From Sphingomonas sp. LHG3406-1 (GTDB taxonomy: Bacteria > Pseudomonadota > Alphaproteobacteria > Sphingomonadales > Sphingomonadaceae): a stretch of 64,000 nt of DNA. Each line of letters opens with the position of its first letter. Within the stretch, counting starts at the first letter, position 1. The notes under the pieces are model-generated. The model made no database searches. It was given only the letters and a program-made list of their open reading frames with translations, and was not told the origin of the DNA. The stretch is from positions 1,364,001 through 1,428,000 of the forward strand of contig NZ_CP069128.1 of assembly GCF_029637485.1 (NCBI RefSeq), in the 5' to 3' direction. The translations under genes were made by a program, and so were the position numbers. Positions 26,671 through 31,367 of the stretch are shown one piece after another.

Positions 26671-27363
26671 TCAGCCCCGGTGACCGGCCAGTTCGTCGAC
26701 CTCGCCCATGATCTGGGCAAGTGCGGTCGTGTCAGGATCGGTCTTGTGCTGGCGCCGGCTGGGCAGTTTCCCGCCGCTCAGCAATTGCTCGAGCGCGACA
26801 CGGCCGCGCGCGACGCGGCTCTTGATCGTACCGACCGCACAGCCGCAGATCTCGGCCGCTTCCTCATAAGCAAAGCCGCCCGCGCCAACCAGGATCAGCG
26901 CTTCGCGCTGCGGCTGCGGCAGGTGCAACAGCGCCCGCTGCATGTCGCCCAGCTCGACGTGCCGGTCCTGGCTGGCCGGCGCGGCGAGCAGCTTGGAGGC
27001 GGTGATCTCGTCCCACTCGCCCTTGAAGCGGGCGCGCCGCATCTGGCTGAGGAAAAGATTGCGAAGGATGATGAAGGTCCAGGCGCGCATGTTGGTGCCT
27101 GCCTGGAAGCGCTTGCGCGCCGCCCACGCCTTCAGCAAGGTCTCCTGCACCAGATCGTCGGCGAGGTCGCGGCTGCCTGACAGCGAGCGGCCGAAGGCGC
27201 GCAGGTGCGGGATGACCTGCGCCAGCTGAACCTTGAATTCCGGGTCCGAGAGAGGAACGGGCTCCGCCCGTGCCGCTTCTGCCGGCTGATCGTCGATTTC
27301 GTCGCTCACTTGTCCCCGACTGCTTGCCTGATTGTTGACGGCAGCGCCTGCGATGTGCGTCAT
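26671..27363 (-). CDS. ecfG: general stress response sigma factor EcfG
   Basis: A 230-residue ECF sigma factor. Region 2 spans DPEFKVQLAQVIPHLRAFGR to MRAWTFIILRNLFLSQMRR, region 4 spans LHLPQPQREALILVGAGGFA then YEEAAEICGCAVGTIKSRVA. This is the EcfG (ECF15) type, held inactive by NepR and released by phosphorylated PhyR. ATG at 27363 chosen (MTHIAGAAVNNQASS). Located 13 bp after a 46-residue membrane gene and downstream of an EcfG-type promoter at 27552-27577, implying autoregulation. Confidence 0.92.
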   Translation of the reverse strand: MTHIAGAAVNNQASSRGQVSDEIDDQPAEAARAEPVPLSDPEFKVQLAQVIPHLRAFGRSLSGSRDLADDLVQETLLKAWAARKRFQAGTNMRAWTFIILRNLFLSQMRRARFKGEWDEITASKLLAAPASQDRHVELGDMQRALLHLPQPQREALILVGAGGFAYEEAAEICGCAVGTIKSRVARGRVALEQLLSGGKLPSRRQHKTDPDTTALAQIMGEVDELAGHRG

Positions 27364-27376
27364 GCTGCCGCTCCGC

Positions 27377-27517
27377 TCAACCGGCCACGAAATAGATGAT
27401 GGCGAACGCCAGGATGACAAGGCTCAGCCCGCCGATCAGTGCCACCCGCGCGACACCCGGAGTCGTACCGGCGCGCGCTTCGGTTCCGGTGAGATGTTCC
27501 GGTTCATTCTGGTTCAT
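27377..27517 (-). CDS. 46-residue single-pass membrane protein upstream of ecfG
   Basis: ATG at 27517, TGA at 27377-27379. The product starts polar (MNQNEPEHLTGTEARAGTTP) and ends in one clear transmembrane helix (VARVALIGGLSLVILAFAII then YFVAG). It lies between the EcfG promoter at 27552-27577 and ecfG, with a 13-bp gap to the latter, so it is co-transcribed with the sigma factor. No family recognised. The Shine-Dalgarno is weak (GGAG 12 bases away). It may be a small stress-induced membrane protein. Confidence 0.65.
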   Translation of the reverse strand: MNQNEPEHLTGTEARAGTTPGVARVALIGGLSLVILAFAIIYFVAG

Positions 27518-27551
27518 GGAAAATTGGCGCTCCGAGAAGTTTCGAAGCGCC

Positions 27552-27577
27552 AACGCAACGATGGGAACCAGAGTTCC
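27552..27577 (-). promoter_or_regulatory. EcfG-dependent promoter
   Basis: On the minus strand GGAAC (27577-27573), 17 nt, CGTT (27555-27552): exact match to the alphaproteobacterial general stress promoter. It drives the 46-residue gene and ecfG. A second CGTT with 12-nt spacing is probably irrelevant. Confidence 0.8.
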
Positions 27578-27592: not shown

Positions 27593-28396
27593 TCAACCGG
27601 CTGGAACGGTCGCCGCATCGAAGAACAGGGCCTGGGCGATCGCCGCCTTCACCGTCGCCCGCTGGAAAGGCTTGGTGATGAGGAAGGTCGGCTCCGGACG
27701 GGCGCCGGTCAGCAGCCGCTCCGGGAAGGCGGTGATGAAGATCACCGGCACCGAGAATTCTGCCAGGATGTCGCGCACGGCATCGATGCCGCTTGAATCG
27801 TCGGCCAGCTGGATGTCGGCCAGCACCAGCCCCGGCGGGTGGGCACGCGCCTGGGCGACGGCTTCGTCGCGGGTCACGGCGACTCCGGTGACGGTGTGGC
27901 CGAGGTCACGGACGATGGTCTCGATATCCATGGCGATGATCGGTTCGTCCTCGATGATGAGGACGTCGGCGAGGGTCTGCCGCTCGATCTCGGACAGAGC
28001 TTCCTGGACCAGATTGTCGACGTCGCTTGGGCTGGCGGCGATAAGATAGCCGGCATCGGACGAGGAGAAGCCCTCCAGCGCCGTCAGCAGCAGGGCCTGA
28101 CGCGACAGTGGCGTGATCCGGCTGAGGCGGGCCTGGGCGATCGCCTCGGGATTGCCGGACGAGCCCGCGCCGAGATCGCCGCCCTCTTCGATGTTGGCGG
28201 TCGACCAGATGGCGTGAAAGGTCTTGTAGAGGCCGAGCCGCGGCTCGACTTCACGCGGAAAGCTGTCCGGAGCGGCGACGATGGCTTCCAGTGTCGCGCG
28301 AACGAAGGCGTCGCCGTGAGTCTGGCTGCCGGTGAGCGCGCGGGCATAGCGCCGCAGGAATGGCAAATGCGGCGCAAGTTCCTGGCCTAGCGACAT
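27593..28396 (-). CDS. phyR: anti-anti-sigma response regulator PhyR
   Basis: A 267-residue protein with an N-terminal sigma-like domain (residues 1-135, no DNA-binding function in this family) and a C-terminal receiver domain. Receiver acidic pair Glu149-Asp150 (VLIIEDEP), phosphoacceptor Asp194 (VLADIQLADD), the FITAFPE loop characteristic of FAT GUY receivers, and the switch Lys in LITKPF. When phosphorylated its sigma-like domain binds NepR and frees EcfG. Transcribed minus, 226 bp of intergenic space separates its start from nepR. Confidence 0.93.
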   Translation of the reverse strand: MSLGQELAPHLPFLRRYARALTGSQTHGDAFVRATLEAIVAAPDSFPREVEPRLGLYKTFHAIWSTANIEEGGDLGAGSSGNPEAIAQARLSRITPLSRQALLLTALEGFSSSDAGYLIAASPSDVDNLVQEALSEIERQTLADVLIIEDEPIIAMDIETIVRDLGHTVTGVAVTRDEAVAQARAHPPGLVLADIQLADDSSGIDAVRDILAEFSVPVIFITAFPERLLTGARPEPTFLITKPFQRATVKAAIAQALFFDAATVPAG

Positions 28397-28522: not shown

Positions 28523-28547
28523 GGAACAAAGTTGTCTCGATTTGGTT
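28523..28547 (+). promoter_or_regulatory. EcfG-type promoter of nepR
   Basis: GGAAC (28523-28527), 16 nt, GGTT (28544-28547): full -35 match and three of four -10 bases. It lies about 75-100 bp before the nepR start, as in other general stress response loci. Confidence 0.65.
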
Positions 28548-28622: not shown

Positions 28623-28856
28623 ATGAGGAACAGCCATTTGCGCCAAGCGACAATTCGGCGGGAGGGGACCAAGGGGTTGAGTGCAGAGAATAGCAACCAT
28701 GGTCCAGCGGACGACAAGACGTTGAAGAAAACGTCCGCCAAGCGGCGGGGTGCTGGTTCCGACGATGTCGGCAAGGCTCTCCGCAGCGCCTATGACGAGG
28801 CACTGCGAGAGGAAGTTCCCGACGATTTCCTCGACCTCCTCGGCAAGCTGAGCTGA
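28623..28856 (+). CDS. nepR: anti-sigma factor NepR
   Basis: A short protein ending in DVGKALRSAYDEALREEVPD then DFLDLLGKLS, the NepR core that clamps EcfG. From the ATG at 28623 it is 77 residues; a TTG at 28677, preceded by GGAGGGG, would give 59 residues, also within family range. The basic, disordered N-terminus is typical. It is followed after 32 bp by the sensor kinase gene, forming a nepR-kinase operon divergent from phyR. Confidence 0.85.
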   Translation: MRNSHLRQATIRREGTKGLSAENSNHGPADDKTLKKTSAKRRGAGSDDVGKALRSAYDEALREEVPDDFLDLLGKLS

Positions 28857-28888: not shown

Positions 28889-30439
28889 ATGTCCAACGTC
28901 AAAGCCTGGTTCCAGCAGCTCCCCACGGCCGGCAAGCTGCTGCTGCTGCTGTCCGCAGCGATCCTTCCCCTCGGCCTTGTGCTGATCGTTGCGGCGACCA
29001 GCGGGATCAACCAGGCCAATCAGGCGCTGTCGGCCCGCGCCAACGACCAGGGCCGGCTGGCCATCCGTGCCATCGACAGCCTGATCGCCCGCAACGTCCT
29101 TGCCCTCCGCATCGCCGCCAACGGCGCCCTCGACGGCTCCGGCGATCCTTGCGAGGACCTCAGGCGGGCGCTGAGCAGCGCGCCGAGCACGCCTGGCAGC
29201 TTCCTTGTCACCGATCCCGTTGGCACCGTCCTGTGCAACCGAGGAGAGCCGACCGGCGACAGCCGACCGAACCTGCTGGTCGCTCCCGGACAAGCCCGCT
29301 TGTGGCTCTCCCCCGACGGCGGGCGGCTGCATTATCGCGTCGGCGTGCTGGGGGGCTCGGCCACCAGCTCGATCAACCGCGAGGCCTTTCGCGCCGCACT
29401 GGTGGCTGCCCGTGCGGGAACCACCACGCTCAGGATCACCGACGGCGGCAGCGAATTGCGGATCGGATCGGCGCCGGTCCAGGCTCCGGCAATCGGCCTG
29501 GACCATTCCATCGTCACCATCGAGCAAGCGATCGCCGGAGGGCAGCTGCAAGTTCGGGCCGACGTGACGTCGGGCCAGGTGGAATCGATCGACCGTCTGG
29601 TCATCCTGCTGCCGGTGCTCATGTGGATCGTCGCCGCGGTGCTGAGCTGGCTGGTCGTCCGCACCTTCCTTCTGCAACCGCTGCGCCGCATCCAGAAGGC
29701 GATCGGCGCGCATGAGCCGGGCAGCGGTGCACTCGAGCTTCCCGACCGCCTCGGCTCGGCCATCGAGATCCGCGATCTCGGGGCCTCCTTCGCCCGCGCG
29801 GTGGCGCGGATCGAAAGCAGCGAGAAGGACATGGCCGATGCCCTCGAAGGCCAGCGCAAGCTGGTGCGCGAGGTGCACCACCGGGTGAAGAACAACCTGC
29901 AGGTGGTGGCCAGCTTGCTCAACATCCACCGGCGCAGCGCCAAGAGCGAGGATGCCAAGGATGCCTATTCCTCGATCGGCCGCCGGGTCGACGCGCTCGC
30001 GGTCGTGCACCGCAACCATTATGCCGAGCTGGAGGAAAACCGCGGCATCGCGCTCCGGCCGCTGTTGAGCGAACTGGCCGCCAATCTGCGCGGCAGTGCG
30101 CCGGACAGCGCCCGCGGGCTAGACGTGAGGCTGGATCTCGAAAGCCTCAACACGACCCAGGACGTGGCGGTGGCGACGGCCTTCCTGACGACCGAGATCG
30201 TCGAGAATGCGATGATGGCCAGCCCCGAGACGCCGATCACGCTGACCCTTCGCCGGACCGGCGCGCTCACTGCTCGCTTCACCCTCGCCACCGGGACATC
30301 GCCGGAAGCCGCGGAGAACGACCCGGAGAATCAGCAGTTTGAGCGGATCATCTCCGGCCTCGCCAAGCAGCTGCGTTCCACGCTTGAACGCGCTCCGGGC
30401 CATTACAGCGTCGACCTTCCGGTCTTTCCGCCGCGTTGA
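28889..30439 (+). CDS. HWE/HisKA_2 sensor histidine kinase of the general stress response
   Basis: A 516-residue membrane kinase: helix 1 at residues 16-38, periplasmic sensor domain to about 235, helix 2 at 237-258, a HAMP-like linker, then HisKA_2 with LVREVHHRVKNNLQVVASLL (phosphoacceptor probably His331). Its place beside nepR/phyR/ecfG indicates it signals to PhyR. The ATPase domain is unusual: an N-box-like TTEIVENAMMAS (Asn440) is present, but no DxGxG G-box can be found between there and FERIISGLAKQLRSTLE. The protein may bind ATP in an altered way or act mainly as a phosphatase. Confidence 0.85.
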   Translation: MSNVKAWFQQLPTAGKLLLLLSAAILPLGLVLIVAATSGINQANQALSARANDQGRLAIRAIDSLIARNVLALRIAANGALDGSGDPCEDLRRALSSAPSTPGSFLVTDPVGTVLCNRGEPTGDSRPNLLVAPGQARLWLSPDGGRLHYRVGVLGGSATSSINREAFRAALVAARAGTTTLRITDGGSELRIGSAPVQAPAIGLDHSIVTIEQAIAGGQLQVRADVTSGQVESIDRLVILLPVLMWIVAAVLSWLVVRTFLLQPLRRIQKAIGAHEPGSGALELPDRLGSAIEIRDLGASFARAVARIESSEKDMADALEGQRKLVREVHHRVKNNLQVVASLLNIHRRSAKSEDAKDAYSSIGRRVDALAVVHRNHYAELEENRGIALRPLLSELAANLRGSAPDSARGLDVRLDLESLNTTQDVAVATAFLTTEIVENAMMASPETPITLTLRRTGALTARFTLATGTSPEAAENDPENQQFERIISGLAKQLRSTLERAPGHYSVDLPVFPPR

Positions 30440-30494
30440 CGCGCGGCCGGCAGGCCACGAAATCCGGATTCAGAAAAAAAGTGTTGCGCCATTT

Positions 30495-30519
30495 GGAACC
30501 CCAATCCGGATGCACCGTT
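30495..30519 (+). promoter_or_regulatory. EcfG-dependent promoter with no protein gene behind it
   Basis: GGAAC (30495-30499), 16 nt, CGTT (30516-30519): perfect consensus match, 56 bp after the kinase stop. No plus-strand protein gene follows; it points into two hairpins and the 3' end of tatC. Confidence 0.8.
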
Positions 30520-30524
30520 TTCTT

Positions 30525-30627
30525 CTTCGGATAGCGACCTTTTGCCCCCCCGCTCTCGCTGTCCGCTTACACGGGCCCGGAATCGTCAACCCTCCCCCCC
30601 CCCGGTGACGATTTCGGGCCCGCTTTG
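30525..30627 (+). ncRNA. putative stress-induced small RNA with two C-rich loops
   Basis: Starts about 6 bp after the EcfG promoter at 30495-30519 (transcription start inferred). Hairpin 1 (30528-30565): CGGATAGCGA pairs with TCGCTGTCCG, ten pairs with one G-U; its 18-nt loop contains seven consecutive C. Hairpin 2 (30572-30622): CGGGCCCGGAATCGTC pairs with GACGATTTCGGGCCCG, sixteen pairs with one G-U; its loop carries CCCTC and a run of ten C. CTTTG follows, so hairpin 2 may also terminate. Its right part overlaps the 3' end of tatC antisense. C-rich loops are the target-pairing or anti-Shine-Dalgarno elements of several alphaproteobacterial regulatory RNAs, including the sigma-T-dependent GsrN of Caulobacter. 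Homology to these is not shown; the similarity is architectural. Confidence 0.65.
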
Positions 30628-31367
30628 CGTCTGGCGGCCCGCCAATTGGTCACGCGGATGGCGATGATAGCGCTTTCGTAGAGCAGCCACAGGGGCACAG
30701 CGAGCATGAACTGGCTGATGGCATCCGGCGGTGTCAGCACCGCGGCGACCGCGAAGGCGCCGACAATGGCATAGCGGCGCTTGGCCGCCAGTTGCTCGCG
30801 GGTCACCAGCCCGGCCCGCTCCAGCAACATCAGCAGGATCGGAAGCAGGAAGGCGACGCCGAAGCCGAACAGGAAGCGGGTCACGAAACTCAGATAATTG
30901 CCGACGGCCGGCAGGGCTTCCTGGTCGATGCCGCCGACATCGCCCTGGAAGCCGAGCAGGAAGTGCAGCGCCCAGGGCATGGCAAGGAAGTAGGCGAAGC
31001 TGGCGCCGCCCGCGAAGAAGACGGGCGTGAGGAGAAGGAAGGGGAGGACCGCCTTCTTCTCCTTGGCGTAGAGGCCGGGGGCGACGAACCGCCAGCCCTG
31101 GGTCGCGATCACCGGGAAGCAGACCATCAAGGCGGCGAACAGCGCAACCTTCACCTGCACCCAGAAGGCCTCGAACACGTCGGTGTAGATGACCCGCGTC
31201 TCGCCGGCGTCCTTCAGCGGCTGGACCAGCACGGAAAAGATCGGCCGGGCGAAATAATAGCAGATGAAGAAGGCGACCAGCAGGACGGCGACGCAGATGA
31301 GCAACCGCTTCCGCAATTCGACGAGATGGTCGAACAGGGGCGCCTTGGTCTCGTCGATGTCCCTCAC
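30567..31367 (-). CDS. tatC: twin-arginine translocase subunit TatC
   Basis: A 266-residue six-helix membrane protein that binds twin-arginine signal peptides. N-terminal HLVELRKRLL, periplasmic FEAFWVQVKVALFAAL, the FxYF segment GGASFAYFLAMPWALHFLLG and the last helices with LTPPDAISQFMLAVPLWLLY are typical. The ATG at 31367 overlaps the tatB stop by 4 bp. The last residues (PGGGRVDDSGPV) are encoded by the region that on the other strand forms the second hairpin of the putative small RNA, including a 10-G run; they are not conserved TatC sequence. Confidence 0.93.
   Translation of the reverse strand: MRDIDETKAPLFDHLVELRKRLLICVAVLLVAFFICYYFARPIFSVLVQPLKDAGETRVIYTDVFEAFWVQVKVALFAALMVCFPVIATQGWRFVAPGLYAKEKKAVLPFLLLTPVFFAGGASFAYFLAMPWALHFLLGFQGDVGGIDQEALPAVGNYLSFVTRFLFGFGVAFLLPILLMLLERAGLVTREQLAAKRRYAIVGAFAVAAVLTPPDAISQFMLAVPLWLLYESAIIAIRVTNWRAARRKAGPKSSPGGGRVDDSGPV

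Follow-up and report, generated by a model that had tools for sequence, protein, structure and literature searches.

The 64,000-nucleotide window of Sphingomonas sp. LHG3406-1 analysed here (contig NZ_CP069128.1, positions 1,364,001 to 1,428,000) carries, at its general stress response (GSR) locus, the gene of an RNA of about 100 nt that is probably an EcfG-dependent, trans-acting small regulatory RNA. The gene stands behind an EcfG-type promoter, comprises two hairpins with C-rich loops and covarying stems, and recurs in the Sphingomonadaceae. A first-pass annotation of the window had proposed an unannotated RNA at this site, and Rfam 15 gave no match in the window above the gathering threshold, with a single chance-level long non-coding RNA match on the opposite strand (E 1.9) when E values up to 5 were admitted. 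The features of the RNA gene, in window coordinates, are as follows.

30495..30519, + strand: EcfG-type promoter of the small RNA, GGAAC-N16-CGTT (motif search, conservation)
30526..30627, + strand: small RNA, ~100 nt, with predicted ends (start 7 nt past CGTT, end after hairpin 2; conserved block, alignments, fold)
30528..30565, + strand: hairpin 1, whose arms 30528-30537 and 30556-30565 form 10 pairs around a C7-containing loop (fold and covariation)
30538..30555, + strand: loop 1, CCUUUUGCCCCCCCGCUC, almost invariant and the putative site of pairing (column identity in 68 members)
30572..30622, + strand: hairpin 2, C-rich loop, likely intrinsic terminator (fold, covariation, U-tract counts)

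Promoter, fold and covariation

The exact motif GGAAC-N16-CGTT occurs once in the window, at the position given by the first-pass annotation, against 0.32 matches expected from shuffles. As 29 of 100 shuffled windows contained at least one exact match, the motif by itself is weak evidence, and the strong evidence is its conservation. GGAAC-N16/17-CGTT was present in all 25 loci of the genus, and GGAAC-N15-18-N[GA]TT preceded 91 of 92 family members (98 loci with L110-L115 dropped), with CGTT at a spacing of 16 or 17 in 73. A search of genome contigs with a hairpin-1 pattern that excluded the promoter returned at least 120 loci; the promoter was found in all 120 of the matches listed (hereafter the pattern-fetched loci), 105 of them with CGTT at a spacing of 16 or 17. 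TGTT, GGTT and CATT are reported -10 variants of EcfG promoters in Sphingopyxis granuli (PMC7083833). A promoter followed by two C-runs was detected in 38 of 99 family genomes, compared with 2 of 99 for a decoy -35 and none for the reversed pattern, although two of the 38 (G100 and G106) match merely via apparent chance stretches. This promoter type at a near-fixed distance from the RNA places it in the predicted EcfG (GSR) regulon, from which we infer transcription that depends on EcfG and is induced by stress.

The segment 30526-30627 is far more stable than shuffled sequence (z -8.4; 0 of 200 shuffles equally stable), as is the wider segment 30520-30640 (z -5.2). The fold bears out the two C-rich hairpins of the first-pass annotation, which had counted 16 pairs in the second; hairpin 2 has 17 outer pairs (one G-U) and two inner pairs, a loop of the form CCCUC...C10, and then CUUUG. 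The U-tract here is short, without a four-U run, whereas such a run follows the hairpin in 53 of 137 compared loci; hairpin 2 is thus a likely terminator of uncertain strength. A coding sequence was rejected because the C-runs of the two loops vary in length among close relatives (6-8 and 8-11 C in the 25 genus loci), which would shift any reading frame.

Compensatory changes in the stems, on which the first-pass annotation had staked its proposal, are present. In genus alignment A1 (25 loci), which was made without fitting to the structure, 95.6% of cells are paired, and both partners have changed in 9 of the 27 pairs, a result reached by none of 500 shuffles. A broader alignment of 68 members, picked from 98 loci with near relatives and weak matches omitted, was fitted to the structure, which favours pairing; in it, both partners have changed in 25 of the 27 pairs, with 247 such cells compared with 59 in shuffles (0 of 500 as good), and 93.6% of its cells are paired, compared with 26-45% when one arm was slid. 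Mean column identity among the 68 members was 0.92 in loop 1, 0.90 in stem 1, 0.85 in loop 2, 0.73 in stem 2 and 0.60 in the spacer, with 12 of the 18 columns of loop 1 at 0.9 or above. The sequence of hairpin 1, its loop among it, is therefore conserved, whereas stem 2 varies freely with its pairing kept. A run of at least six C was found in the 5' hairpin of 91 of the 92 members.

Spread across the Sphingomonadaceae

With positions 30440-30680 as BLASTN query, 23 of the 24 further genus genomes yielded a homologue, and none of 16 genomes from other genera did. The sole genus genome without one, G005, is 77% complete, and most of the genus matches span the RNA and not its flanks. Two copies were present in G003, the second of which is suspect, and possibly contamination, because its contig is 3 kb long and the genome is split into 160 contigs. 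A covariance model built from the 25 genus loci (R1) matched 64 of 199 Sphingomonadaceae genomes, as well as 35 of 196 genomes drawn from the order, all 35 of the same family (the share of the 196 from outside the family being uncounted). The covariance search across sphingomonads suggested by the first-pass annotation reached further with a second model (R2), which matched 78 of the 199 genomes and 42 of 96 genera, about 72 of the genomes being convincing on inspection of one locus per genome. Six were set aside: G072, G219 and G178 as resembling plain terminators or coding stretches, and G043, G137 and G199, all of one genus, as lacking the promoter. Among 385 genomes drawn from the class R2 gave three matches, namely the genome of the window, a single further Sphingomonadaceae genome and G485, which belongs to a different family; the large model searches used filters that lose weak matches.

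The match outside the family (L117:1500-1600) has two C-loop hairpins with a terminator and no GGAAC promoter, and is perhaps a similar design reached by convergence. Weak model matches at L110-L112, L114, L115 and L132 resemble common terminators or coding sequence. Three others from one genus, L128, L130 and L131, have two hairpins beside tatC with the GGAAC promoter missing from its place, and L113 is an EcfG-type but different RNA. When the tatC flank was inspected in 40 genomes without a model match, for the most part those with the highest tatC scores though not in strict order, two of them, both of the same genus, held an EcfG-type C-loop RNA there. The 80 titled matches among the pattern-fetched loci comprised Sphingomonas, Sphingomicrobium, Sphingosinicella, Stakelama and Hephaestia, together with records named no more closely than Sphingomonadaceae, Sphingomonadales, Alphaproteobacteria, Proteobacteria or uncultured bacterium.

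Some genomes also carry candidates with an EcfG-type promoter and a C-loop hairpin away from the GSR locus. G052 has four EcfG-type C-loop candidates in all (the extra ones at G052:C7:129080, C7:148307 and C46:33739), and the extra ones have the loop GCCCCCCGCUC, not the stem, in common. One extra candidate each was found in G045 (C1:940706), G062 (C307:1175), G074 (C12:13391), G071 (C22:198682), G121 (C24:146233), G130 (C36:57358) and G095. The off-locus candidates are possible sibling RNAs.

Genomic setting and alternative explanations

The position at a GSR locus, also claimed by the first-pass annotation, was confirmed by Pfam matches for four of the neighbouring genes.

26671..27303, - strand: ecfG sigma factor (PF04542, PF08281, scanned from 27303; the listed open reading frame (ORF) reaches 27420 and the start is provisional)
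27593..28396, - strand: phyR (PF22029, PF22233, PF00072)
28677..28856, + strand: nepR, anti-sigma factor, TTG start proposed, candidate target (PF18557)
28889..30439, + strand: HWE/HisKA_2 family histidine kinase of the GSR locus (PF07568, PF07536)
30567..31367, - strand: tatC, convergent, 3' end overlapping the RNA (ORF list)

The name tatC, like those of the adjoining tatB and tatA, is our presumption from reading the translations. The usual position of the RNA is between the GSR kinase and tatC: among pattern-fetched loci with enough sequence, the kinase precedes the RNA in 90 of 100, tatC comes after it in 94 of 100 and nepR lies further upstream in 69 of 90, and most of the model-found loci inspected were arranged in the same way. 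A small lipoprotein ORF after the RNA, which we take to be entericidin-like, is a further frequent neighbour; at L136 it lies at about +192 from hairpin 1, between the RNA and tatC.

This ORF raises the question of whether the RNA is a 5' leader or attenuator of a downstream EcfG-dependent gene and not a free RNA. It lies behind the RNA, in the same orientation, in 86 of 111 pattern-fetched loci (some of the genus) and in 54 of 66 other loci outside the genus, and the terminator-like hairpin 2 would suit an attenuator; however, an EcfG-type promoter lies between the RNA and the ORF in 81 of the 86 and 47 of the 54 (128 of 140 in all), and genus loci keep the RNA while the ORF was found in 0 of 23 and 0 of 21 of them (overlapping sets). 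The entericidin leader was rejected because the ORF mostly has its own promoter in between, and we regard it as very unlikely; the own promoter and the ORF-less genus loci point to the RNA as a separate transcription unit that appears to have outlived, or never had, an entericidin-like neighbour in the genus. Equally improbable is a role as cis-antisense RNA of tatC, or as a mere bidirectional terminator between the kinase and tatC. The antisense overlap with the 3' end of tatC (stop at 30567) noted in the first-pass annotation is real, and with the RNA taken from the start of hairpin 1 to +97 it recurs in 17 of 21 genus loci; the synteny with tatC likewise speaks for this reading. The overlap is not general, since only 18 of 105 pattern-fetched loci, some of them of the genus, have it, and the median distance from hairpin 1 to the tatC stop in the pattern-fetched loci is 401 nt. 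Antisense action on tatC was accordingly rejected as the main role, the overlap not being kept beyond the genus, and a bidirectional terminator would need neither an EcfG promoter nor fixed C-rich loops.

A less remote alternative, though still an unlikely one, is that the RNA works by binding a protein, such as a C-preferring RNA-binding protein, and not by pairing with mRNA. Loop 1 is nearly fixed while no clear family-wide target emerged, and the candidate siblings of some genomes have the loop and not the stem in common. Against this, GsrN and alpha-r14 RNAs are reported to pair through C-rich loops on hairpins (PMC5869019, PMC10746234), and the start sites of nepR carry G-runs, as set out below.

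Candidate target and relation to known RNAs

For the preferred reading, a trans-acting regulatory RNA, pairing of the C-rich loops with Shine-Dalgarno sequences is plausible, and the predicted partner within the locus is as follows.

28657..28676, + strand: region around the translation start of nepR, GGCGGG-A-GGGG-AC-CAAGGGG, with complementarity to loop 1 (duplex energy)

In the predicted duplex, loop 1 and the nepR start form 17 pairs in three blocks; at -27.2 kcal/mol it ranks first among 46 sites (from 45 heuristically called genes, best of three starts each), the next reaching -23.0. A run of at least five G precedes the nepR start in 56 of 72 pattern-fetched loci (at least six in 25), compared with 26 of 1080 background ORFs (at least six in 7), this background consisting of six-frame ORFs of at least 200 aa, not all of them real genes. 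Neighbouring genes have such runs in 0 of 87 (phyR), 8 of 80 (ecfG), 1 of 87 (kinase), 3 of 95 (tatC) and 0 of 90 (tatB) cases. In a wider sample, from which L373 was set aside, runs of at least four G were found before nepR in 22 of 36 model-positive and 8 of 33 model-negative genomes (Fisher p 0.003, uncorrected for kinship). Among 8 to 12 genes per locus, nepR ranked first in 10 of 21 genus loci, where 2.0 would be expected. An initial pairing test on 72 loci with poorly placed starts gave little, with a mean of -22.9 compared with -22.0 for shuffled sequence.

A number of results weigh in the opposite direction. In the same wider sample runs of at least five G preceded nepR in 10 of 36 model-positive and 6 of 33 model-negative genomes. 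The gene was not the best site in 11 of the 21 genus loci, ranking as low as 8th of 10, in two genus loci its best pairing fell elsewhere than on the G-rich site ahead of TTG, and in just 4 of 21 did 5% or fewer of 200 shuffled loops pair as well; start codons were guessed in these target tests. Genome-wide, AGCGGGGGG had 14 sites in the genome of the window (the antisense of the RNA itself included) compared with 16 for a reversed control, with no clear target at a start site; one lies about 28 nt inside an ORF that, judged by eye, presumably encodes a J-domain protein. The counts given throughout are not independent, because the loci have a common descent and some genomes occur in both the pattern-fetched and the model-found set. 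Because the evidence is mixed across relatives, nepR is kept as a candidate only, and a doubtful one.

Two further features of nepR were observed. The start regions of L133-L252 have unusual Shine-Dalgarno runs of G5-6, often with TTG or GTG starts, and NepR splits into higher- and lower-scoring groups against PF18557, with most RNA-bearing genomes in the lower group.

The mechanism that we envisage would begin with stress freeing EcfG from NepR, upon which the RNA would be transcribed from its own promoter. Its two very stable stems would display the C-rich loops, the second hairpin probably serving also as terminator, and the loops would pair with G-rich ribosome-binding regions, so that translation of selected mRNAs would be repressed or otherwise altered. 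A more specific version, which we advance tentatively and do not expect to hold in full, is that loop 1 masks the ribosome-binding site of nepR, less anti-sigma factor is made and EcfG activity is thereby sustained, with sibling RNAs extending the regulon. Such a post-transcriptional positive loop would counteract renewal of nepR by EcfG, should that occur.

Sphingomonads serve as models of the alphaproteobacterial GSR. With its conserved EcfG-type gene next to the kinase, the RNA would fill a gap in the small RNAs of the sphingomonad response, supplying a defined loop and a defined candidate target for testing. No description of this RNA was recognised in a survey of titles and abstract openings from mainly open-access literature, and the letters of the loop did not occur in the main texts of the papers searched. 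RNA terms led to no GSR-regulated small RNA in the main-text portions available of the regulon studies of Sphingomonas melonis Fr1 and of Sphingopyxis granuli TFA.

The comparison with GsrN of Caulobacter crescentus drawn in the first-pass annotation holds as an analogy, in promoter type and in a C-rich loop in the 5' hairpin, and is taken from the published description (PMC5869019). The present RNA differs in its sphingomonad family, in a C-rich loop that is also present in the terminator hairpin, in its site between kinase and tatC, and in its candidate target, nepR, whereas GsrN activates katG (PMC5869019). Predicted GsrN homologues in Caulobacteraceae are typically near ecfG-nepR-phyR, although not in C. 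crescentus itself; according to the available text, BLASTn matches are restricted to Caulobacteraceae and Erythrobacter litoralis has no apparent gsrN-like gene (PMC5869019). The cuckoo RNAs, or alpha-r14 (NfeR1; PMC10746234), and CcsR share unpaired C-rich anti-Shine-Dalgarno motifs on hairpins, and alpha-r14 is likewise reported to keep its motif while its stems vary (PMC10746234). However, alpha-r14 has three hairpins compared with two here, NfeR1 is reported with a sigma-70 promoter signature (PMC10746234), and the cuckoo/alpha-r14 motif CCUCCUCCC was absent from all 92 members and all 120 pattern-fetched loci. SuhB of Sphingopyxis granuli TFA is similarly a sphingomonad trans-acting small RNA, which lowers translation of the regulator thnR (PMC6563040); by its description it differs in being 61 nt long, in growth-rate-tied expression, in conservation in Sphingopyxis and in having no EcfG link in the text available (PMC6563040). 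Its motif places the present RNA outside the cuckoo/alpha-r14 group, and its predicted size and regulation set it apart from SuhB.

Two further EcfG-like sites lie within the locus.

28523..28547, + strand: EcfG-like site before nepR, GGAAC-N16-GGTT (relaxed motif, could be chance)
27577-27552, - strand: EcfG-like site before ecfG (relaxed motif; overlaps the listed TTG start of a 58-aa ORF)

The relaxed motif has five sites in the window compared with 2.69 expected from shuffles, so that chance may account for them; should the sites before nepR and ecfG be genuine, an already self-feeding loop would gain a post-transcriptional branch through the RNA. The 58-aa ORF (27377-27553, - strand) lies just upstream of ecfG and contains a transmembrane-like stretch.
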